Source of the DNA: Bacteroidales bacterium
GTDB taxonomy: Bacteria; Bacteroidota; Bacteroidia; Bacteroidales; UBA3824
Assembly (NCBI GenBank): GCA_016286055.1
Contig: JAEERW010000007.1
Span: 221,766 to 255,542 of the forward strand
Direction: 5' to 3'
Length of the DNA: 33,777 nucleotides
Numbering within the stretch: the stretch's first letter is position 1; the number at the start of each line of letters is the position of its first letter. The notes beneath the pieces were generated by a model. That model saw only the letters and a list, made by a program, of their open reading frames with translations. It ran no database searches and was not told where the DNA came from. Position numbers and translations under genes: made by a program. Shown here piece by piece: positions 2,771-30,594 of the stretch.

Positions 2771-3898
2771 TCACAACAAATAATCAAAATAATTTTCGGG
2801 GGTAACAACAACAGAATCTTTCACAGGGTACGACTGCAAAAAAGCGTCAGGGAATGGGGTACGACCCTTTTTAGCGTTCCATTTCATTTCAAAAATAGTC
2901 ATCTCCCCGTCAGACTCCTCTATATAATCGATTTCTTGTTGCGTTTTAGTTCGCCAAAAATATGTGTTGCAATAGTTTTGGAGGTAATGATTTCGTTTGA
3001 TACGCTCAGATATAAAAAAGTTCTCCCAAAGTGCGCCCATATCGTTGCGCATTTGTACAGGTGCAAACTGCTGAATCACAGCATTTCGTATTCCGTTGTC
3101 ATAAAAAAATACCTTTTTAGACTTTTTGAGTTCGTTGCGCAAATTACGACTGAGACCATTTAGACGAAAAATAATAAAACATTTTTCAAGCAGGTCGATG
3201 TAACGCTCTACTGTTTTGGCATCGCTACCAATTGTTTGTGCAATTTCGTTGTACGATACTTCGGAGCCAATTTGAAAAGCCAAGGCTTTGAGCAGACGGT
3301 CGAGAATCTCTGGACGGCGAAGGTTGTCGGATGCAAGAATATCTTTGTAAAGGTAACTATCAGCCAGAGTCCGCAATAATTCCTGAGAATTACCTACATT
3401 TGACAATATATCAGGATACGAACCATAGATGAGTCGTGTTTCTAAAAGATTCTGCACATTAATATAGCCTTCCGACTTGTAAATTTCGCCTGTGGAGATA
3501 GGGAACATCAGATACTCAAACTTTCTTCCCGTAAGAGGTTCGTTTAAACGATTTCTAAGTTCAAAAGCAGACGAACCAGTGGCAATAACCTGAACGTCAG
3601 GGAAATTATCAACCACAATCTTAATTGTAAGACCAATATTGTCCACTTTCTGAGCCTCGTCGATAATCATAACACGATTAGAACCAATTAGCATTTTTAA
3701 CTCCTTGATGTTTCGGTTAGTGAGGGCAACAACTGTTTGCGGCTCGTCGCAGTTTAGGTAAAGAACATCGTCTCTAAGATTGTTGGTAATATGTTTAAGC
3801 AAAGTGGTTTTACCAACTTGACGCGCTCCAAGCAATATAATCGCCTTGTTTTTAAAACAACGGTCGAGTATTATCTGATGTAAGTCTCTTTTAAACAT
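2771..3898 (-). CDS. AAA ATPase with C-terminal DUF4143 (AAA_14 family), copy 1
   Basis: 375 aa. The N-terminal ATPase has Walker A GARQVGKT (24-31), Walker B VMIIDEAQ and sensor-1 region ATGSSAFELRN. Then comes a winged-helix-like stretch (YNEIAQTIGSDAKTVERYI), and a C-terminal DUF4143 domain with EIDYIE (near residue 322) and FEMKWN (near 337), which resembles the D...ExK core of PD-(D/E)XK nucleases. This family is abundant in Bacteroidetes and other gut bacteria; its physiological role is not established. Its promoter (3924-3955) is built into the first unit of a 32-bp-period palindromic array, which points to dedicated regulation. A diverged second copy is at 8180-9331. Confidence 0.88.
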   Translation of the reverse strand: MFKRDLHQIILDRCFKNKAIILLGARQVGKTTLLKHITNNLRDDVLYLNCDEPQTVVALTNRNIKELKMLIGSNRVMIIDEAQKVDNIGLTIKIVVDNFPDVQVIATGSSAFELRNRLNEPLTGRKFEYLMFPISTGEIYKSEGYINVQNLLETRLIYGSYPDILSNVGNSQELLRTLADSYLYKDILASDNLRRPEILDRLLKALAFQIGSEVSYNEIAQTIGSDAKTVERYIDLLEKCFIIFRLNGLSRNLRNELKKSKKVFFYDNGIRNAVIQQFAPVQMRNDMGALWENFFISERIKRNHYLQNYCNTYFWRTKTQQEIDYIEESDGEMTIFEMKWNAKKGRTPFPDAFLQSYPVKDSVVVTPENYFDYLL

Positions 3899-3923
3899 AA
3901 TGTTGGTTAATGGATTTATTCTG

Positions 3924-3955
3924 CAAATATAAGAAGAAAATTATCGTAATCCAAA
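3924..3955 (-). promoter_or_regulatory. Bacteroidetes promoter of the first DUF4143 ATPase
   Basis: On the minus strand, TTTG (3955-3952), 20 nt, then TATATTTG (3931-3924). This matches the Bacteroidetes sigma consensus exactly. The -33 TTTG lies inside the first palindromic unit of the adjacent array, so a protein bound to the array would cover it. Confidence 0.75.
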
Positions 3956-4042
3956 AAAGTAATGTCTTTTTTGGATTATGATCCAAAAAAGTTATAACTA
4001 TTTTGGATTACGATCCAAAAAAGTAATATCTTTTTTGGATTA
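3947..4042. repeat. Three tandem 32-bp palindromic units upstream of the ATPase
   Basis: Three units begin at 3949, 3981 and 4013, an exact 32-bp period. Each contains ATCCAAAA and its complement TTTTGGAT. Arms: unit 1 3947-3958/3967-3978 (12 bp, 8-nt loop), unit 2 3981-3988/4001-4008, unit 3 4013-4022/4031-4040 (10 bp). Units 1 and 3 share the loop form GTAATRTC. There are no spacers of differing sequence, so this is not a CRISPR array. It fills most of the gene-free stretch 3899-4141. Probable operator array. Confidence 0.88.
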
Positions 4043-4077
4043 GCAAAGGATGAATAAACAAGACTGAAATATAATAT

Positions 4078-4108
4078 TTTGAAATTTCGGATAGAAATGT
4101 TTTCTTTG
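4078..4108 (+). promoter_or_regulatory. Probable promoter of the GT4 pair
   Basis: TTTG (4078-4081), 19 nt, TTTCTTTG (4101-4108; one mismatch to TAnnTTTG). Predicted transcription start near 4115, which rules out the in-frame starts at 4079 and 4097 and supports the ATG at 4142. Confidence 0.5.
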
Positions 4109-4141
4109 CGTACTAATTTTATTTACAGAATAAAATCAACT

Positions 4142-5206
4142 ATGCACAACATCCTCCTTGTTTGGGACCGTATCGGTGATTATCATCTTGCACGTGTAAG
4201 GGCGTTGCGGAAGGTGGTAGGCAATAGATTGGTGTTTACCGCCGACCTTGCCGCCGCCGACAACCTATATAAGTGGAAAACCGAAAACCTTGAAAACCAT
4301 TTTGTGCTTTCCTCTAAAACCGCCGAACAAAAGGATGTGCGCACAAGGTTGAAAAATTTTAAAAAGATTATCAAAACTCACAACATAAAATACTGCTGCC
4401 TTGCTGGTTACGGACGTATTGAATATCTGGGGATGATAATTGCCGCAAAACTTCGCGGATGCAAGGTGCTGATTTTTTCGGAGAGTTGGTACGGACGGCG
4501 CACACCTTTTAATATATTAAAGTCGTGGTTTTTAAAAATGTTTGCCGATGTGTTTTTGGTGTCGGGCATAAGGGCGAGAGATTTTACTGCTAATATTCTG
4601 AAAATCAAGCCCGAAAAAATAGCCATCCCCTACTCAGTGGTAGACAACGCGCATTTTGCAAACCCTGGCAATTATAATCCCGATACCAAGGTTATGCTCT
4701 GTATGGCGCGTTTTAGCAAGGAAAAAAATCAGGAATTTCTTATAAACGCATTTTTAAAATCCTCATTATCGGAGAGTTGGACATTAAAACTTGTTGGAGC
4801 AGGTCCGCTAAAAGAAGAATTAGAGCAAAAGTTTAAACAAAAACATAATATAACACTATGCAATTGGGCGGTTTACAACGAATTACCTACGATTTACCAT
4901 AACAGTTCGATGTTTGTTTTGGCAAGCACGTTTGAGCCGTGGGGATTGGTGGTAAACGAGGCAATGAGCGCGGGACTGCCGTGTGTGGTGAGTCGTGCCG
5001 TGGGTGCTATGCCCGATTTGGTGGATTCATCAGACGGTTTTACATTCGACGAAACCAACGAACAATCGCTCGTGGACGTTTTCAACTGCATTGCCACATT
5101 ATACAAAGAACAACTTATGCAGATGAGCCGCGCCGCCGTGGAGCGAATCAGCCGTTTTACCCCAGAAATTTGGGCGCAACAAGTTGTCAATTTGCTTAAA
5201 ATATGA
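4142..5206 (+). CDS. GT4-family glycosyltransferase
   Basis: 354-aa cytoplasmic glycosyltransferase of the GT-B/GT4 class, which moves a sugar from a nucleotide donor to a lipid- or glycan-linked acceptor. The N-terminal acceptor domain begins MHNILLVWDRIGDYHLARVR. The C-terminal donor domain has LCMARFSKEKNQEFL, LVGAGPLKEEL and the E-x7-E motif EPWGLVVNEAMSAGLP. The frame continues upstream to a TTG at 4079, but the promoter at 4078-4108 makes the ATG at 4142 the likely start. It overlaps the next glycosyltransferase by 4 nt (ATGA), so the two are translationally coupled. Donor and acceptor are unknown. Confidence 0.88.
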   Translation: MHNILLVWDRIGDYHLARVRALRKVVGNRLVFTADLAAADNLYKWKTENLENHFVLSSKTAEQKDVRTRLKNFKKIIKTHNIKYCCLAGYGRIEYLGMIIAAKLRGCKVLIFSESWYGRRTPFNILKSWFLKMFADVFLVSGIRARDFTANILKIKPEKIAIPYSVVDNAHFANPGNYNPDTKVMLCMARFSKEKNQEFLINAFLKSSLSESWTLKLVGAGPLKEELEQKFKQKHNITLCNWAVYNELPTIYHNSSMFVLASTFEPWGLVVNEAMSAGLPCVVSRAVGAMPDLVDSSDGFTFDETNEQSLVDVFNCIATLYKEQLMQMSRAAVERISRFTPEIWAQQVVNLLKI

Positions 5207-6273
5207 ACATTATCAACATTATAGACCGTATCGACAAGGTAAATTTCGGCATTTGGAACGCCGCCCTCCTACCCTGCACCACACTTTATAATATATATAA
5301 GGTGAAATGCTTTGCGGTTTTCCCTCGTATAAACGATTTGCCCGATGTTAAAACGCTCTATAATGTTGAACCAATTATTATAGATAACACTGACACTGAG
5401 GAATTTAGAAAATTTTTAGAGAGTTTTTCGCCCAAAGAGACCATAATTGTAACACACGGAAGTTGGCGTTTCCCTACACGATGGGGAAATTATGCCGCAA
5501 ATAACGGTTTCAAATGGGTTTACACACCTCACGGAATGTTAGAGCCGTGGAGCAAGAGGTTAAAATGGTTGAAAAAATTGCTTTATTTCCAATTTATAGA
5601 AAAACGGATGATAAAACGTGCGGCAACCATTAGGGCAGTTTCAAAACCTGAAATGGAAAATCTCAAAAAAGATTTCAAAAAAGTAGTTCACATACCCAAC
5701 GGAGCGGCAGTTATTAAAAGTTACTCAGCGGTAACAAAGCCTATAACCCTTTTGTTTCTTGGCAGGCTGAACTCCAAAAAATGCGTCTACGAGATACTCA
5801 GGGCGTGGATAGATTCCAATGGGTTTGGCAATGGAGATTATAGTTTAAAAATAGTTGGTCCCGACGATGGAGAGTTTCCTCGGCTTGATGCATTATACCG
5901 GACTTTACCCGAAAACAAAAACGTATATCTCAGCAACACACCCGTTTATGGCGCAGAGAAAGAGGCGTTGTTGGCAGAAAGCACATTTTTTCTCTTGCCA
6001 TCGCAGTCGGAGGGTTTTCCCACATCGGTGGTGGAGGCAGGAATGGCGGGATGCGTACCAGTTATCAGCGACGGTTGCAATTTTCCCGAACTTTTTGAAA
6101 ATCAACTTGGAATCAAAGTAGAAAGCAATTACAATTCGTTGCTGAAATTTTTCAATAATATTCCGCAACCATCTAACCGTAAGCAATATACCGATTATTT
6201 TGTGGAGAATTACTCCATAGAGGCAATTGCGGAAAAAATGGTTTCGCTATACAAACGGCTGTTAGAGCATTAA
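5203..6273 (+). CDS. GT4-family glycosyltransferase
   Basis: 356-aa GT-B glycosyltransferase, partner of the preceding gene, which it overlaps by 4 nt. Conserved features are YTPHGMLEPWSKRLKW (a HGM motif seen in many GT4 enzymes), RAVSKPEMENL, the donor-domain start FLGRLNSKKCVYEIL, and the E-x7-E motif EGFPTSVVEAGMAGCVP. No membrane segment is seen. The pair plausibly adds successive sugars to one surface glycan, but there is no polymerase or flippase nearby to define a capsule or O-antigen cluster. The 3' end overlaps the convergent radC gene by 12 bp. Confidence 0.88.
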   Translation: MNIINIIDRIDKVNFGIWNAALLPCTTLYNIYKVKCFAVFPRINDLPDVKTLYNVEPIIIDNTDTEEFRKFLESFSPKETIIVTHGSWRFPTRWGNYAANNGFKWVYTPHGMLEPWSKRLKWLKKLLYFQFIEKRMIKRAATIRAVSKPEMENLKKDFKKVVHIPNGAAVIKSYSAVTKPITLLFLGRLNSKKCVYEILRAWIDSNGFGNGDYSLKIVGPDDGEFPRLDALYRTLPENKNVYLSNTPVYGAEKEALLAESTFFLLPSQSEGFPTSVVEAGMAGCVPVISDGCNFPELFENQLGIKVESNYNSLLKFFNNIPQPSNRKQYTDYFVENYSIEAIAEKMVSLYKRLLEH

Positions 6274-6939
6274 ACCCTCGTCGCAAAAACTGTAATAACT
6301 ATCGCCGGCAATGATAATGTGCTCGGGAAGGTCGATATGCAGAAGTTTGCAAATCTTTTTTAAATCTTGGGTGAGCGAAATATCCTCTTGGCTTGGGCGA
6401 CAAGTGCCTCCGGGATGGTTGTGACACAGGATAATGCGTCCGGCATTGCACTCAAAGGCATAACGGAGAATCTCTTTAAAATCTACCACCACCACATTCG
6501 ACGCACCTTTGCTTATTTGCTGACGGCGTATAAACTGTCCGCTTATGTTGCAATATATCACCCAAAATTCCTCGTGAGGTTTTTCGCGAAGAAACTTCAT
6601 AGATTCAAACACATCTTTGCTCGATAAAAGTTTCACCTCGGTGGGCGGAGTGGCGGCGGCAATTCGGCGACCAAGTTCCTGAGCAGCACGGATAATGGTA
6701 GACTTTGCCGGACCGATACCTTCCACCTGCTCAATCTCCGAGCGGGTTAGGCGGGTAAACTTCATCAGGTTGTAGTCTGCCATCTTCATTACGTCGTTGG
6801 CAAGGTCGAGCGCCGAGCGATTTGCAGTGCCGTTAGTTATAAGTATAGCAATAAGTTCGGCAACGGAGCAAGCATCGGGACCATTGGCGATAAGTTTTTC
6901 GCGTGGGCGGTCGTCTTCGTTCCAATCTTTGATGGGCAT
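6262..6939 (-). CDS. radC: RadC/JAB-domain protein
   Basis: 225-aa RadC-family protein. A helix-hairpin-helix (EQVEGIGPAKSTIIRAAQEL, about residues 68-88) precedes an MPN/JAB domain with the metal motif HNHPGGTCRPSQED near residue 170 and an upstream acidic residue in EEFWVIYCN. The name implies DNA repair, but that role is not well supported and the JAB domain suggests a metallo-hydrolase. N-terminal MPIKDWNEDDRPREKL is typical of the family, fixing the start. It is downstream of rpsT but separated from it by a terminator. Its last 12 bp overlap the convergent glycosyltransferase. Confidence 0.93.
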   Translation of the reverse strand: MPIKDWNEDDRPREKLIANGPDACSVAELIAILITNGTANRSALDLANDVMKMADYNLMKFTRLTRSEIEQVEGIGPAKSTIIRAAQELGRRIAAATPPTEVKLLSSKDVFESMKFLREKPHEEFWVIYCNISGQFIRRQQISKGASNVVVVDFKEILRYAFECNAGRIILCHNHPGGTCRPSQEDISLTQDLKKICKLLHIDLPEHIIIAGDSYYSFCDEGLML

Positions 6940-6953
6940 AGGATAATGGAAAT

Positions 6954-6987
6954 AAAAAAAGGTCTCAACCGATTACCCGTCAAGACC
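6954..6987 (-). terminator. Intrinsic terminator after rpsT
   Basis: Minus strand: GGTCT (6987-6983), a 17-nt loop, AGACC (6965-6961), then seven T (6960-6954). The stem is short but the T run is clean. It separates rpsT from radC. Confidence 0.6.
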
Positions 6988-7015
6988 CTCTTTGCGTATT
7001 ATGACAACAAAATTA

Positions 7016-7267
7016 TTACAACTTGTTAACAAGTTTCTGCAACTTTGATTTCAAGTTAGCAGCCTTGTTCTGATGGATGATGTTTCTCTTGGCGAGTTTG
7101 TCAATCATTTTAACAACACCCGGAAGAGCCTTCTCGGCTTCTTCTTTCTCTTTTGTTGCACGGATTTTTCTTACTGCGTTACGCATTGTAACGGCATAGT
7201 AGCGGTTGCGAAGTCTGCGAACTTCGTCCTGTCTGATCTTCTTTTTTGCTGAATGATGATGAGCCAT
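7016..7267 (-). CDS. rpsT: 30S ribosomal protein S20
   Basis: 83-aa, very basic S20, which binds the 5' domain of 16S rRNA early in small-subunit assembly. It starts [20 protein letters not shown] and has the long helical body [20 protein letters not shown] typical of the family, at full length. It is monocistronic: its own promoter lies at 7326-7353 and a terminator follows at 6954-6987. The 5' UTR is about 50 nt; I see no clear autoregulatory structure in it. Confidence 0.95.
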
Positions 7268-7325
7268 TTCTCTTTTATTTAATGCTTTTGTTTATATTCA
7301 AATATTCTGTTTACAAATCAGAGCG

Positions 7326-7353
7326 CAAAGTAACAAAATATTCTTGATACCAA
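7326..7353 (-). promoter_or_regulatory. Probable rpsT promoter
   Basis: Minus strand: TTG (7353-7351), 17 nt, TTACTTTG (7333-7326). The -7 box has one mismatch and the spacer is slightly short. It is back-to-back with the glycosyltransferase promoter at 7362-7393. Confidence 0.5.
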
Positions 7354-7361
7354 CAAAAAAA

Positions 7362-7393
7362 TTTGCGGATTTAAATTTTAATTTTTACTATTG
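7362..7393 (+). promoter_or_regulatory. Probable promoter of the GT2 gene
   Basis: TTTG (7362-7365), 20 nt, TACTATTG (7386-7393; one mismatch). The predicted start near 7400 leaves a leader of about 11 nt before the ATG at 7411. Confidence 0.5.
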
Positions 7394-7410
7394 TACCAAG
7401 AAAAATAATT

Positions 7411-8163
7411 ATGAACAATCCAAAAATATCTGTTGTAACAGTGGTTTACAACAGCGCGGCACTTATAGAAAATACCGTTAAAAGTATTATAAATCAATCG
7501 TATAGCCACATAGAATACATAGTGGTGGACGGCGGAAGCACCGATGGCACTATTGACATTCTCAACCGTTACAAAAAAAATATTTCTACCCTCATATCCG
7601 AACCCGACCGCGGAATATACGACGCAATGAACAAGGGAATCAGCCTTGCCTCCGGCGATTTTGTGGTGTTTATTAATTCGGGCGACAAATTTTCTTCGCC
7701 AGACATTCTTGAAAAAATTTTTTCTAACCCCGATGCCGCACAAGCCGACGTTATCTATGGCGACACCGACATCACCGACTCAGATGGCAATATTATCCAT
7801 TCGCGCCGACACCGTCCGCCCGAAACACTCGATTGGAAAAGTTTTAAGCGAGGAATGTTGGTTTGCCATCAGAGTTTTATTGCAAGGCGCAATTTAATAG
7901 ATAGTTACGATTTAACATACCGTTACGCTGCCGATTTTGACTGGTGCATTCGCATTCTTAAAAAATCTAAGAGCGCGTACAACTCCCGTCAGGTGATAAG
8001 CCTTTTTCTCGAAGGCGGACAGACCCGCAAAACCATCGTCCCCGGCTTAAAAGAGCGTTTTAAGATAATGCGCCACCACTACGGACTTATTTCAGCCACA
8101 TTTTGGAATATAATATTAGGTGTGCGGTTTACGTGGTTTGTGATACGGCATAGATGGTTTTAA
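7411..8163 (+). CDS. GT2-family (GT-A fold) glycosyltransferase, WcaA-like
   Basis: 250-aa inverting glycosyltransferase. N-terminal ISVVTVVYNSAALIENTVKS and YIVVDGGSTDGTIDIL form the nucleotide-sugar site. EPDRGIYDAMNKGISLASGD is the family's highly conserved middle motif. The metal-binding acidic cluster is in GDTDITDSDG or INSGDKF. CHQSFIARR and ADFDWCIRI are typical of the WcaA-like subgroup of colanic-acid-type transferases. Probably cytoplasmic and membrane-associated in surface-glycan synthesis. It is monocistronic, with its own promoter, and convergent with the ATPase gene that ends at 8180. Confidence 0.9.
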   Translation: MNNPKISVVTVVYNSAALIENTVKSIINQSYSHIEYIVVDGGSTDGTIDILNRYKKNISTLISEPDRGIYDAMNKGISLASGDFVVFINSGDKFSSPDILEKIFSNPDAAQADVIYGDTDITDSDGNIIHSRRHRPPETLDWKSFKRGMLVCHQSFIARRNLIDSYDLTYRYAADFDWCIRILKKSKSAYNSRQVISLFLEGGQTRKTIVPGLKERFKIMRHHYGLISATFWNIILGVRFTWFVIRHRWF

Positions 8164-8179
8164 ACGGCATTAAAAACCC

Positions 8180-9331
8180 TTAGGCAAACAATTTTCCATT
8201 CCAAAGGCGCGACAAAAACTCTTTGGCAGGCCAAACCTCCACACCGTTAAACAATCGTGGGCGTTCCTCCAACGATACCACAATTAGTTTACAATCAGGA
8301 TATTCCTCTTTAAACGCCTTTAATCCTTTGAGATGAGAAGAAACCACATTTGCCGACGACTTGATTTCAATAGCCACTTCGGCATCGCCAATTATAGCAT
8401 CAACCTCGTAGGCATTGTTGAGAGTATGCCAAAATGAAAGTTTCTTATCAGATTCGGTATAATCGAGATATGCGGCAAGTTCTTGAATAATAAGATGTTC
8501 AAAAGCGTGACCATATTCAGAAGTTCCTCTGGTTAAACGTCCTCGGTGAAGCAAATGATTGGTAATACCCGTGTCGAAATAATAGAACTTGGGCGACAAC
8601 TGAACTTTACGCTTCAAAACCTTTGTGTAAGCAGGCAGAAACATACCAATAAGCGTCTCCTCCAAAATAGTAAAGTATTCTTTAACAGTTTTTGCCGACA
8701 CACCGCAATCGGTAGCAATTTTGGCGTAATTTACCATTTCAGAATCACTGAGAGCCGCAACCTCCAAAAACCGTGTAAAAGAATCCAAGTTTCGCACCAA
8801 TGCCTCGGCAATAATCTCTTGTTGAAGATAATCACCGATGTATGCTTGCAGACGTTTTTGCGGAGTGGTGGAAAGATAGTGGCGCGGCATCATTCCGTAA
8901 TTGACCGCACGGTCTAAATCAAAATCGGGTATTTCAGCACTAACCAACGGATGGAGAACCTTGCGAATAGCCCTTCCGCCAAGAAGGTTAGCCCCCGAAC
9001 GTTTTAATTTGCGTGCGCTCGACCCGCACAAGATAAAATTGATACCGCGGTTGGTAATAAGCCAATGAACCTCGTCGAGCAACGAAGGAATTTTTTGAAC
9101 CTCGTCGATAATAACGGTAGACCCTTCGTCAAGCATCATACACTCCTCGCGCAACTGCGACGGACGGAGTTTGTATTGAGCGTAAACATCAGATTTCAAC
9201 AAATCGTAATAAGGGGCATCAGGGAAAAGTCGCTTCAAGAGAGTGCTCTTGCCTGTCTGTCTCGGGCCCCACAGAAAAATACTATCTGTTTTGATATCGT
9301 TAAGCGAAAGAAGTCTATCTAACATACACAT
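8180..9331 (-). CDS. AAA ATPase with C-terminal DUF4143 (AAA_14 family), copy 2
   Basis: 383 aa. Walker A GPRQTGKS (22-29), Walker B TVIIDEVQ, sensor-1 region LCGSSARKLKR, and a DUF4143 domain ending in a nuclease-like core EVDAIIGD (near residue 307) with AIEIKSS (near 321). The same family as the gene at 2771-3898 but clearly diverged (GPRQTGKS against GARQVGKT), so not a recent duplication. The first two candidate starts are Met1 (9331) and Met3 (9325); both lie just inside the predicted transcript start near 9341. Role unknown; it could be a chaperone-like or defence-related ATPase. It has an upstream array with the same 32-bp period as copy 1. Confidence 0.88.
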   Translation of the reverse strand: MCMLDRLLSLNDIKTDSIFLWGPRQTGKSTLLKRLFPDAPYYDLLKSDVYAQYKLRPSQLREECMMLDEGSTVIIDEVQKIPSLLDEVHWLITNRGINFILCGSSARKLKRSGANLLGGRAIRKVLHPLVSAEIPDFDLDRAVNYGMMPRHYLSTTPQKRLQAYIGDYLQQEIIAEALVRNLDSFTRFLEVAALSDSEMVNYAKIATDCGVSAKTVKEYFTILEETLIGMFLPAYTKVLKRKVQLSPKFYYFDTGITNHLLHRGRLTRGTSEYGHAFEHLIIQELAAYLDYTESDKKLSFWHTLNNAYEVDAIIGDAEVAIEIKSSANVVSSHLKGLKAFKEEYPDCKLIVVSLEERPRLFNGVEVWPAKEFLSRLWNGKLFA

Positions 9332-9347
9332 TTAGTTTAGCATTTTG

Positions 9348-9379
9348 CAAAGTTACTAATAATAAAAATATTAAACAAA
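9348..9379 (-). promoter_or_regulatory. Bacteroidetes promoter of the second DUF4143 ATPase
   Basis: Minus strand: TTTG (9379-9376), exactly 20 nt, TAACTTTG (9355-9348), a full consensus match. The predicted start near 9341 leaves a leader of only 10-16 nt. The 32-bp repeat array begins 12 bp upstream of the -33 box. Confidence 0.75.
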
Positions 9380-9390
9380 AAATTTGAATG

Positions 9391-9450
9391 AAAAAATGGA
9401 GTACAACTTCCGATTTTATCGCAAAAAATGGAGTATCACTTCCGATTTTA
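9391..9450. repeat. Two tandem 32-bp-period units upstream of the second ATPase
   Basis: A 28-nt block at 9391-9418 is repeated at 9423-9450 with two mismatches, a period of exactly 32 bp. Each block runs from AAAAAATGGAGTA to ACTTCCGATTTTA and is an imperfect inverted repeat (AAAATGGAGT against ACTTCCGATTTT). A partial third block may start near 9458 (AAAAATGGTTTTA). The sequence is unrelated to the array at 3947-4042. Confidence 0.85.
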
Positions 9451-9528
9451 ACCAAACAAAAATGGTTTTAACATTCTTTAATTACCTTTTAAACCTCTTA
9501 ACAATAATAAGTTGTTTCTTTGCACCGT

Positions 9529-26568: not shown

Positions 26569-29500
26569 ATGAAACACCTTATCACCATCATCGCGGCACT
26601 AATACTATCCGCCACATCTGCCTCGGCACAGGAGGCGTATGCTTTAATGTCTACCGACAGCACCACTCTGACATTCTATTACGACACACAGAAAGCAACC
26701 CGAGAAGGAACTGCCTTTGAAATGAATGTTGGTGATTCTATCCCTCATTGGCTTTTTCAGGAATATTTTGGACAGAAATATACAAAGGTTATCTTCGACC
26801 CGTCGTTCAAAAATTACCGACCAACCACATGCGCTTATTGGTTCGGAGAGTTTAGAGATCTAACCAATATTGAAGGTATGAAAGAGAATCTCAACACGTC
26901 GGAAGTTACCAATATGTCCTATATGTTTGCCGGTTGCAACAATCTCCCCGAAATAGACCTCAGTGGGTTCAACACCAAAAATGTAGTGGATATGCATAAA
27001 ATGTTTTCAGGGTGCAACGAAATTACCACACTTGATTTTAGCACTTTTAATACAGCCAAAGTAACCACTATGGGAAATATGTTTCAAGGGTGCATAAATC
27101 TTACGGAACTTGATTTAAGCACTTTCAACACCGATAATGTAACAAGTATGCACAGCATGTTTATTTTGTGCAAGCAACTTAAAAAACTCAACATATCAAC
27201 CTTCAACACATCTAACGTTGAATCCATGGCGTATATGTTTGGCGATTGTCAAAGTCTCGAAACTCTTGATGTGAGCAAATTCAACACTGCAAAAGTTAAA
27301 AATATGTTCAAAATGTTTTGCGGTTGTAAAAATGTATTAGAATTGGATGTGAGCAAATTCAACACGCAACAAGTGATTAATATGCAAGATATGTTTGCTT
27401 GGTGTTACAAGTTACAGAGCCTCGACGTTAGTGGGTTTAACACTACAAATGTTACCAATATGAGTGGTATGTTTGCCGATTGTACAGTGTTATCTAGCAT
27501 TGATGTCAGCGGTTTCAATACCGACAAAGTTACTGATATGAATTGTATGTTTAGCAAATGCTATAAACTAACCAATCTCAACCTCAGTGGGTTTAAAACC
27601 GACAAAGTAAAAAGTATGAGATGGATGTTTAAAGATTGTCATAGCCTTGCAAGTATCGATTTAAGTAGTTTTTACACATTTAATGTTGAATCTATTGAGG
27701 GTATATTTGAGAATTGTAAAAAACTAAAAAAGATATACGTAGGAGATTTTTGGAAAATAAAAAAGGATGCTACATCAAACAATATGTTCAAAGGTTGTAT
27801 TTTTCTTTCGGGTGACAAGAAAACTAAGTACCACGAATCTCATACCAACATAGAATACGCCCGCGTAGATGGTGGCAAATCCGCACCAGGCTATTTCTCT
27901 TACAAAAACAACGTAATAAGTTATCCACCTTTCCCACGCGAGGCATATTATGTATTCAACAACGACACAATGTTTTTTTACTATAACTGCGACAGACCAG
28001 TAAAATCTTTTGATATAAAAGGCGACCGGTTGGTTTATGACCATAAAATTACAACCGTAGTATTCGACAAATCATTTAAAGATTACCGCCCCAAAAGTTG
28101 TCATTATTGGTTTCTCGGCTGTGAAAAACTTACAACTTTCATTGGAATGAACGAGTATCTAAATACCGACAGCGTTACCGATATGATAGGTATGTTCGAG
28201 TTTTGTGAGAATCTCAAAACACTTGACCTAAGCGGATTCAACACCGAAAATGTAGAGAACATGAACTCTATGTTTTATTCTTGCTCAAATCTTGAAACAA
28301 TCTACGTTGGCGACAAATGGATCATGAATAAAAATAACCGAAGCCAAAACATGTTCCAAAATTGTTACCAGCTGTGCGGAGAAAATGGTACAGATTATTA
28401 TCCCCAAAAATACAACGATTATTTTCGTGCCCAAATTGATGGTGAAGGCACACTTAAACAGGGATATTTCACAGCCAAGGGTCATACAGCATTGCGTCCA
28501 TACTCAGTTATAGAAAACGGAGTCCAGACATTTCGCTTCGACGGTCAAAAGCCCGAAAACGCATATAACATGCGTAAATCAAAACCCGAATGGAATGTTA
28601 ATGATATATACAAAATCGTATTCGACACATCGTTTTACAAGTACAAGCCACAATCATTGGAAAGTTGGTTTGAAGGTTACTCAAATCTCACCGAGATTGA
28701 GGGAATCGAATATCTCAACACTTCAAAGACTGCTACAATGGCTAATATGTTCAAAGGATGCAAAAACATCACAGTGCTGGACCTTACGGGGTTTAATACT
28801 TCGGGACTAACTTTTGGTTTTTGTTTTAAAGACAAATCAGAGGTACAAGCGGCGTTGGATGATCCTAATTTTTCTTGGCCAAATAGTTCTCCTTGCTTCA
28901 AAGGAACGTTTTCTGGCTGTTCCAAGCTTCAAACTATATATGTAGGTGATTATTGGAAAAGTAGTTACTTTTTTAGCAACACAGTAAAAATTAACGATAG
29001 CACATCTACATTCTACAAATGCGAACAACTTATCGGAGGCGCAGGAACTAAATACAAAAATGGCTGCGATTTATTTCAAATTGACGAAGGAGAGTCTTCG
29101 CCAGGATATCTCACTTATAAAAGTCCGTTTGATTACACCGACTCACAAGGCAACACGCCATACGCAGTAGTTAAAGACAGTACATTATATCTATATTTCA
29201 ACAACGACAAACCCTCCAACGCTATCAGAATAAGGGCTTGGGATGATAATGTCCGCAAAATTGTAACCAAAATTGTATTAGACAAATCATTCAAAAACTA
29301 TAAGCTCAAAAGTTGTAGTGGCTTGTTTGGATTTTTATATAATGTTAAAACGATAGAAGGCATTAACGAAAATCTCAATACCGAAAATGTATTTGATTTT
29401 GCAAATATGTTTAATAATTGTTACAATCTTACCGATTTAGACTTAAGTGGACTAAATACAGCAAAAGCAACAGATATGAGTGGAATGTTTGAAGAATGTC

Positions 29501-30594
29501 ATAAATTATCATCCATAGATATCAGTGGATTTAATACAACCAACTTAGAGAAAATTGTTGATATGTTCTATAATTGTCATAATCTTAAAACCATTTATAG
29601 CGATAACTTATGGAATGTTGATCATCTAGACTCTACCTACTCTATATTCCAAGGATGTGAAATGCTATTTGGTGAAAAGGGTTCAGAATGTAATATTGGA
29701 AAAGAATTGGTATCATTTGCACATATTGACGGTGGTGATTCAAATCCAGGATACTTTACACTAAAGGGTAATAATCCTTATGAGCCTACAATAGATTATT
29801 ATAAAGCATTACAGCCATACTTAGTGTTATTTAATGGAATATTGACATTTTATTACGATCAAAATAGACCAGTACAATCATTAGGATGGCCAAAATGGGA
29901 ACGAACATGGTTATCGTTTACTGATAGCACAATCGTAAAAGTAGTATTCGACAAATCGTTCGCAAATTATAGACCTACATCTACAGAATTATGGTTTTCA
30001 GATTGTAGCAATCTGAATTCTATCGAAGGTATGGAATACCTTAACACGTCTGAGGTTATAAATATGCGTTATATGTTTGCTAATTGTAGCAAACTCACAA
30101 ACATTAACTTAAGTCATTTCAATACACAAAAAGTTTATGATATGAGTTATATGTTTGCTAATTGTACAAAACTTACAAACATTGACCTTAGCCATTTCAA
30201 TACACAAAACGTTACCCATATGTTATATATGTTTGCCAATTGTACCAAGCTCTCAAAAGTTGACCTTAGTCATTTCAACACACAAAAAGTTACTCAGATG
30301 GATGGAATGTTTGCTCTATGTGAAAACATTACAGAATTAGACCTCAGTAGTTTCAATACTTCAGAAGTAATGTCTATGTATAATATGTTTCACGAATGTA
30401 AGAAACTGAAAACCATTTTTGTAAGCAACAAATGGGTTGACAATTTAATAAGAGGCGAGCATCCATTATTCACAAACTGTCCCAAACTCATAGGTGGCAA
30501 AGGCACAAAATTCACCCCCGAAAAAACTGACAAAGAATACGCCCGTATAGATGGCGGCATTTCCGCACCGGGATATTTTACAGAGAAAAAATGA
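26569..30594 (+). CDS. Large BspA-like surface protein with DUF285 repeats (5 modules)
   Basis: 1341 aa with signal peptide MKHLITIIAALILSATSASA. Five modules, each opening with a short beta-segment (xFYYDxxxPxxxxx), then a KxVFDxSFxxYRPxS strand, a run of DUF285 repeats, and closing ARIDGGxSAPGYFT-type caps near residues 446, 636, 847, 1065 and 1340. Repeat counts per module are about 11, 2, 1, 3 and 5. The first 50 residues are nearly identical to those of the preceding gene, 13 nt upstream. In module 5 the repeats are close copies at the DNA level (78-bp period near 30073-30230), a sign of recent expansion. Function inferred: surface adhesion. Secretion route uncertain. Confidence 0.88.
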   Translation: MKHLITIIAALILSATSASAQEAYALMSTDSTTLTFYYDTQKATREGTAFEMNVGDSIPHWLFQEYFGQKYTKVIFDPSFKNYRPTTCAYWFGEFRDLTNIEGMKENLNTSEVTNMSYMFAGCNNLPEIDLSGFNTKNVVDMHKMFSGCNEITTLDFSTFNTAKVTTMGNMFQGCINLTELDLSTFNTDNVTSMHSMFILCKQLKKLNISTFNTSNVESMAYMFGDCQSLETLDVSKFNTAKVKNMFKMFCGCKNVLELDVSKFNTQQVINMQDMFAWCYKLQSLDVSGFNTTNVTNMSGMFADCTVLSSIDVSGFNTDKVTDMNCMFSKCYKLTNLNLSGFKTDKVKSMRWMFKDCHSLASIDLSSFYTFNVESIEGIFENCKKLKKIYVGDFWKIKKDATSNNMFKGCIFLSGDKKTKYHESHTNIEYARVDGGKSAPGYFSYKNNVISYPPFPREAYYVFNNDTMFFYYNCDRPVKSFDIKGDRLVYDHKITTVVFDKSFKDYRPKSCHYWFLGCEKLTTFIGMNEYLNTDSVTDMIGMFEFCENLKTLDLSGFNTENVENMNSMFYSCSNLETIYVGDKWIMNKNNRSQNMFQNCYQLCGENGTDYYPQKYNDYFRAQIDGEGTLKQGYFTAKGHTALRPYSVIENGVQTFRFDGQKPENAYNMRKSKPEWNVNDIYKIVFDTSFYKYKPQSLESWFEGYSNLTEIEGIEYLNTSKTATMANMFKGCKNITVLDLTGFNTSGLTFGFCFKDKSEVQAALDDPNFSWPNSSPCFKGTFSGCSKLQTIYVGDYWKSSYFFSNTVKINDSTSTFYKCEQLIGGAGTKYKNGCDLFQIDEGESSPGYLTYKSPFDYTDSQGNTPYAVVKDSTLYLYFNNDKPSNAIRIRAWDDNVRKIVTKIVLDKSFKNYKLKSCSGLFGFLYNVKTIEGINENLNTENVFDFANMFNNCYNLTDLDLSGLNTAKATDMSGMFEECHKLSSIDISGFNTTNLEKIVDMFYNCHNLKTIYSDNLWNVDHLDSTYSIFQGCEMLFGEKGSECNIGKELVSFAHIDGGDSNPGYFTLKGNNPYEPTIDYYKALQPYLVLFNGILTFYYDQNRPVQSLGWPKWERTWLSFTDSTIVKVVFDKSFANYRPTSTELWFSDCSNLNSIEGMEYLNTSEVINMRYMFANCSKLTNINLSHFNTQKVYDMSYMFANCTKLTNIDLSHFNTQNVTHMLYMFANCTKLSKVDLSHFNTQKVTQMDGMFALCENITELDLSSFNTSEVMSMYNMFHECKKLKTIFVSNKWVDNLIRGEHPLFTNCPKLIGGKGTKFTPEKTDKEYARIDGGISAPGYFTEKK

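Follow-up and report, generated by a model that had tools for sequence, protein, structure and literature searches.

The window analysed here, a stretch of 33,777 nucleotides from a Bacteroidales bacterium of the UBA3824 lineage (assembly GCA_016286055.1, contig JAEERW010000007.1, positions 221,766 to 255,542), carries two genes encoding predicted ATPases with a DUF4143 domain. Directly upstream of each gene lies an array of short, evenly spaced repeats, hereafter called words, and a putative promoter box is found between the array and the start of the gene (Table 1). The Bacteroidota -7 consensus is TAnnTTTG, and both boxes were read by eye against it.

Table 1. ATPase genes, putative promoter boxes and repeat arrays of the window (positions counted from its first nucleotide)
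Feature	Coordinates	Strand	Content or basis
ATPase 1 (P0001, 375 aa)	2771..3898	-	Pfam AAA_14 (17-139) and DUF4143 (185-341)
ATPase 2 (P0002, 383 aa)	8180..9331	-	Pfam AAA_14 (17-133) and DUF4143 (172-326)
-7 box TATATTTG of ATPase 1	3924..3931	-	by eye; interval between array and gene
-7 box TAACTTTG of ATPase 2	9348..9355	-	by eye; interval between array and gene
Array 1, three dyads of ~30 bp, ATCCAAAAAAGTnATnnCTTTTTTGGATTA, period 32	3943..4046	.	repeat listing, shuffles, dyad score
Array 2, two copies of AAAAAATGGAGTAyMACTTCCGATTTTA, period 32, imperfect dyad	9391..9454	.	shuffles

The first-pass annotation of this DNA had described the two genes as diverged DUF4143 paralogues whose arrays have their period, position and dyad symmetry in common but not their sequence, and most of this description holds. 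Both proteins contain AAA_14 and DUF4143 and are 27% identical, and repeat analysis confirmed the common 32-bp period and the upstream position, placing the three copies of array 1 at 3949-4042. The self-similarity scores of the arrays (69.1 for array 1 and 41.0 for array 2) are each reached by 0/50 dinucleotide shuffles, array 2 being absent from the Tandem Repeats Finder listing of the window. The arrays resemble each other (similarity 12.2) no more than those of unrelated gene pairs do (median 13.8). The dyad symmetry stands for array 1 (score 25.2, 0/15 shuffles) but not for array 2, whose score of 8.5 is within chance (7/15 shuffles reach it); here, as in the named-record and motif-model tests below, shuffles keep base composition only. 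A congener relative of the ATPase 2 gene (L133) has a clear dyad (0/15 shuffles). More generally, dyads favour shorter proteins: 37/41 arrays beat all 15 shuffles for proteins of fewer than 412 amino acids, and 28/112 for longer ones.

Upstream arrays within the genome and beyond

The genome that contains the window (4.18 Mb) has 40 DUF4143 matches, 34 of them above the Pfam cut-off. Two (L009 and L019) were omitted since their start and P-loop frame could not be placed, leaving 38 scored genes, the start codon being the ATG nearest to the P-loop among those 12 or more codons ahead of it. An upstream array was found for 36 of these 38 genes against 11 of 304 control open reading frames (ORFs) from twenty stretches (Fisher 1.7e-36). 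Three of these 11 ORFs read as related-type ATPases and two are divergent neighbours of those. When the lag is restricted to 31-34 bp, 32/38 genes and 0/304 controls remain. Control ORFs were chosen mechanically (at least 120 amino acids with overlaps removed in this genome, at least 150 amino acids with overlaps kept in the wider sets). Viewed next to one another, most genes of the genome show a word of their own, in two to five copies just upstream.

Some loci of this genome are arranged differently. L014 and L016 (G000:C23), as well as L048 (G004:C35) in another genome, are back-to-back ATPase gene pairs that have one intergenic region in common; that of L014/L016 holds two sets of different words (by eye), and L016 was scored with the array of L014, its divergent neighbour. 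Spacings other than 32-33 bp occur at L037, L038, L058, L060, L031 and L010. In the GRRRxGKT-type ATPases and L031, the upstream words are 51-53 bp apart, i.e. about five helical turns, and in the L010-like group they are 23 bp apart, i.e. about two turns.

In a set of 133 genes from the genus, in which the L027/L028 gene counts twice (both misses) and which includes at least three ATPases from control stretches, 110 have arrays, with lags of 32-34 bp in 90, 23-24 bp in 7 and 51-53 bp in 13. The L001-like misses have instead a single palindrome of ~31 bp in the leader, downstream of the -7 box (by eye). The first-pass annotation had named arrays missing from most homologues as the result that would speak against a paired locus; in the genome and in the genus, arrays are present in most of them. 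Furthermore, among additional subfamily genes from 25 genomes, the best lag is 31-34 bp in 36/36 and 28 pass the threshold.

Outside the genus, fewer genes pass. These include 43/77 genes from a genome collection spanning Spirochaetes to Akkermansia (80 loci, three dropped because their upstream regions were too short; controls 11/254), 6/28 from wider Bacteroidota (controls 1/55) and 11/31 from viral contigs (controls 2/83). The genus part of the same survey, which overlaps the earlier genus set, gave 28/29 (controls 8/37). The spacing nevertheless persists: the best lag is 32 or 33 bp in 57/100 of the genes below the threshold against 18/293 own-genome controls, which shows that weaker copies escape the threshold. 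Averaged lag spectra have their peak at 32/33 bp in each of the four sets. Among 18 named plasmid and phage records, three pass (Segatella copri, Collinsella and Acinetobacter), and a Bacteroides thetaiotaomicron plasmid has two words 66 bp apart (2 x 33; by eye). DUF4143 ATPase genes are present on plasmids as well as on contigs of the viral collection. A scan of viral contigs with P0001 alone found no relative.

Words and proteins that vary together

If each ATPase had its own cognate repeat, as had been proposed from the window, protein and upstream repeat should co-vary. Co-variation was examined in 209 genes; the 153 of them that have arrays form 11,628 pairs. The more similar two proteins are, the more similar are their arrays, which is mostly not so for the flanking DNA. 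For instance, words are shared by 0.18 of the pairs at ~54% protein identity against 0.00 for flanks, and by 0.90 against 0.11 at ~81% identity. The Mantel correlation is 0.358 for arrays, a value reached by 0/1000 permutations, and -0.042 for flanks. For nearest protein neighbours below 70% identity, the neighbour ranks in the top 5% by array in 55/145 cases and by flank in 13/145. The array counts and this co-variation together support the proposed locus type. The view that word similarity is merely inherited along with the locus is disfavoured by the flank control.

Moreover, adjacent copies are more alike in the word (identity 0.89) than in the spacer (0.47; 145 copy pairs), which indicates that the words are not merely recent duplicates; they look as if they are under selection. 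In one similarity bin, words are common to 3/11 same-genome pairs and to 50/69 cross-genome pairs (Fisher 0.0056, the pairs not being independent). Over 99 matched pairs the difference is slight (same-genome mean 18.6 versus 22.3, cross-genome higher in 0.55). The single bin is a hint of selection against cross-talk between paralogues.

The words are almost private to their genes. With up to 3 mismatches, the array 1 word has three sites in the whole genome and the array 2 word two, all of them in their own arrays. A dispersed-repeat identity of the kind formed by repetitive extragenic palindromes and their associated transposases (REP/RAYT) was rejected on this ground. One of the 36 arrays of the genome yielded no usable word; for 32 of the other 35, the 586 kb of own-genome sequence retrieved (overlaps included) contained no further match at 2 mismatches of 20, and for three (the exceptions being L007, L025 and L038) it did. 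The L007 word occurs in 7/18 genus genomes (own included), and in six of these seven a pair 32 bp apart directly precedes an L007-type ATPase frame, which is 317 amino acids long in G005.

In the subfamily of ~430 amino acids (157 of 187 genes usable), 106/157 arrays fit one bipartite motif made of a variable left half and the constant half AAAA(A/G)TGTA. The word lies in one direction in 120 and in the other in 37 of the 157. The TA of the constant half coincides (offset 0) with the TA of the -7 box in 11/33 Bacteroidales genes and with that of the -10 box in 11/48 other genes. Hence, in some genes word and promoter overlap.

Within this subfamily, one protein residue is associated with a single base in the variable half. 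In the 106 motif-fitting genes, the mutual information between residue 388 (L008 numbering) and motif column 4 ranks first, and that between residue 388 and column 2 second. T is found at column 4 with Lys388 in 26/29 genes, with Arg in 16/19, with Gln in 3/29, with His in 4/6 and with Ser in 3/5. Among 71 representatives below 70% identity, the association of Lys/Arg 388 with T at column 4 ranks first among 4,112 tests (p 1.1e-6). Residue 388 lies six positions past the ExK lysine of the nuclease-like domain. When protein domains were compared with word halves in 118 genes, divergence of the winged helix was accompanied by divergence of the constant half (p 0.0002, 0.03 and 0.10 in three pairings). 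These data point to a division of labour in this subfamily, in which the winged helix would read the constant half, whereas the variable half would be read by the nuclease-fold domain close to its active site.

A predicted ATPase-nuclease of a candidate defence family

At E 0.001, AAA_14 is found in 38/38 and DUF4143 in 37/38 of the own-genome proteins, and both window proteins exceed the Pfam cut-offs. Such ATPases give up to 53 matches per genome (G005). The nuclease-like D...ExK core that had been noticed in DUF4143 is conserved: Walker A and B, D324, E337 and K339 are invariant in 36 sequences of a subfamily alignment numbered after P0001 (A2), and in a second subfamily alignment (A3) E380 and K382 are invariant and D367 nearly so. 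An acidic residue combined with ExK is what marks the PD-(D/E)XK superfamily, so that these proteins are predicted nucleases.

The structure model of P0001 has a predicted local distance difference test score (pLDDT) of 91.0 and a predicted template modelling score (pTM) of 0.90. Its secondary structures come in an order that suggests an ATPase, then a winged helix and last an alpha/beta domain containing the ExK strand. The closest solved folds are the archaeal ATPases 2QEN and 2FNA, followed by NLR, CED-4 and Orc1/Cdc6; the matches barely cover P0001 beyond residue 284, so that this comparison concerns the part ahead of the nuclease fold. Searched by sequence against the PDB, neither window protein had a match at E 0.01.

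All 38 own-genome proteins match the PDC-S01 models of PADLOC (E 1e-5; P0001 at E 4.1e-162, P0002 at best E 2e-52) and two also match PDC-S27; they are thus among the phage defence candidates (PDCs) of that resource. According to PMC12988326, PDC-S01, an ATPase fused to a PD-(D/E)XK domain, ranks fourth by frequency among the (candidate) defence systems of prokaryotes (29,494 copies in bacteria and 9,986 in archaea), and most PDCs still await validation. PMC12988326 and PMC13356809 present the family as an abundant, unvalidated candidate defence. The account of PDC-S01 in the accessible text of PMC12988326 mentions neither upstream repeats nor self-recognition nor specificity classes.

Proposed self-recognition and its alternatives

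The reading that we favour, with a probability of roughly 0.77, is that these genes form one locus type, in which a single-gene predicted ATPase-nuclease would come with its own recognition words, bind them and repress its own promoter. Among the options raised by the first-pass annotation, a self-recognising operator appears to be the best supported by the sequence comparisons. Operators overlap or flank their own promoter, and the window arrays, just upstream of the -7 boxes, are placed as operators would be. The words usually come in 2-5 copies at a spacing of 32-33 bp (three helical turns), sometimes of 23 or 51-53 bp, or as a single dyad, and the ATPase might bind them as a helically phased oligomer. 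Bound in this way, the oligomer would repress its own promoter, a word copy often being fused to the -7 or -10 box. Paralogues would mostly have acquired different words, giving dozens of specificities per genome. Binding by the ATPase itself, repression through this binding and a nuclease kept quiet until it is triggered, for instance by phage infection, are inferred from the sequence patterns.

In its boldest form, the promoter site would keep the nuclease inactive until disturbed. A nuclease domain would then have become the part of the protein that identifies its own gene, the PD-(D/E)XK domain reading the private half of the word and the winged helix the common half. Each genome would hold dozens of self-recognition classes. 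The nuclease would wait at its promoter and be set free once this DNA or its occupancy is disturbed, and a recognition code would begin with residue-base pairs such as that of residue 388 and column 4. This extended version is tentative and we hold it to be distinctly less probable than its negation.

Several results weigh against self-recognition or restrict it. Genes below the array threshold outside the genus number 34/77 in the genome collection, 22/28 in wider Bacteroidota, 20/31 on viral contigs and 15/18 in the named records. Five alphaproteobacterial relatives of P0002 have one dyad in common and no array (by eye); its core, CGGAA...CTCCAT, recalls the ATPase 2 word, a resemblance that is statistically weak, and with an 8-gene Bacteroidales model these dyads are the top site, but with weak scores (reached in 1, 24, 9, 35 and 1 of 300 shuffles). 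Clearly related words (score at least 30) are found in 7/917 same-genome gene pairs, loci having been assigned to genomes by hand and the genome of L093 guessed. The association of residue 388 fades with stricter redundancy filtering: among 47 representatives below 60% identity it is the best of 2,407 tests but fails correction (p 9.0e-5), and among 31 below 55% it loses the first rank. Furthermore, His and Ser at this position also go mostly with T (4/6 and 3/5), and the whole nuclease-like domain is weakly related to the variable half (p 0.21, 0.05 and 0.31 in three pairings).

The L007 word also stands before two genes that encode other proteins. In the own genome, an L007-type word pair 32 bp apart (G000:C30:25224-25275, L403, upstream of 5302) precedes a gene for a GNAT acetyltransferase that is remote from the L007 ATPase. 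The pair would either act as a control element in trans or be left over from an ATPase that was lost. In G012:C19 (L411, 939-1552), such a pair stands beside apparently the same upstream neighbour as that of L007, and a NADAR gene (PF08719, E 3.3e-53) takes the place of the ATPase, giving the appearance of a swapped payload behind this promoter. These two cases indicate that the words are not strictly self-only.

The strongest competing explanation, which we consider rather unlikely, makes the array mainly a resting site on which the nuclease would be kept inactive: loss of the array, through plasmid loss or phage attack on host DNA, would free the enzyme, as in addiction or abortive infection. 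The conserved nuclease motif in both subfamily alignments fits this explanation, as do the position of residue 388 next to that motif, the presence of these genes on plasmids and viral-collection contigs and the several word copies, which seem to go beyond the needs of simple repression. It is at odds with the array of G012:C19, which has no ATPase behind it, and with the versions that have a single dyad (by eye).

Repeats before genes are a common operator architecture, and the words could also be bound by a separate regulator encoded elsewhere, their co-variation being inherited with the locus. This is improbable since flanks of the same genes do not co-vary and residue 388 of the ATPase itself goes with a base of the word. 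Moreover, annotated neighbours are given in 10 of the 18 named records, and they vary from record to record. As the words of one genome mostly differ, dozens of extra regulators would be needed. A two-gene toxin-antitoxin system would have a conserved partner gene; the neighbours of the window genes and of these 10 records differ, as seen without a systematic count.

Even less probable is a repeat-bounded mobile element, in which the ATPase would move arrays that serve as terminal or target sites, as for RAYT/REP or TnsC-like ATPases. In the own genome, words do lie on both sides of L025 (three direct copies within ~100 nt after the stop) and of L038 (one similar dyad after the stop), both on G000:C24, and L097 has one match downstream. 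Turnover is also strong, a relative of P0001 being found at E 1e-60 in 10/17 other genus genomes (best identity 46-90%). However, words downstream of the gene occur in 3/106, 0/41, 0/23 and 0/4 of the genes tested, the window words are not dispersed, and the lag and, partly, the fusion to the promoter are conserved. The repeat-bounded cassette, also considered in the first-pass annotation, is therefore disfavoured as a rule. Least probable of all are RNA hairpins acting as attenuator or mRNA binding site: the large palindrome in the leader of the L001-like group, downstream of the -7 box (by eye), would suit them, but the majority of words precede or overlap the promoter box (by eye). Words occur in both orientations and, for longer proteins, are mostly not dyads, and an Rfam scan of the window gave no match.

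Autoregulated repressor-operator pairs with private specificities are well known, e.g. phage immunity repressors, toxin-antitoxin autoregulation and the controller boxes of restriction-modification systems. The proposed self-recognition resembles them in that repeats at the own promoter would be recognised and that diverged specificity would avoid cross-regulation among relatives. It differs in that recognition would fall to an AAA+ ATPase that is encoded by one gene and carries a nuclease-like domain, and in that the 32-33-bp spacing is found across phyla. Compared with Orc1/Cdc6 initiators and the archaeal ATPases SSO1545 and PABY2304, the words are promoter elements of a single locus and not known origins, and the protein has an extra nuclease-like C-terminal domain. 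REP/RAYT and CRISPR arrays likewise consist of short evenly spaced repeats adjoining one protein gene; unlike REP, the window words are not dispersed, and unlike in CRISPR arrays, the unit is a word with a short linker rather than a repeat with a stored spacer.

The proteins as a candidate defence family and autoregulation through repeats as a type of control were thus known already, and it is the pairing itself that appears to be new. In the literature searched, whose scope left out bioRxiv and most subscription papers, no description of repeats private to each ATPase was found, nor any account of the mechanism of the PDC-S01 family. Private words would provide a first mechanistic handle on PDC-S01, whose members could be sorted into specificity classes. 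They would also constitute a large natural set of protein-DNA pairs for learning a recognition code. Hence, binding, repression, cross-talk, cutting and phage response become testable with constructs taken from genomes.

Two other repeats were observed besides these arrays. In an own-genome control stretch, a gene (L074, 14275-14920) has a strong upstream array of period 20, and its start resembles a REP-associated transposase. In the window itself, tandem 78-bp repeats at 30062-30359 lie within an ORF (26569-30594) and are perhaps repeat units of a large protein.

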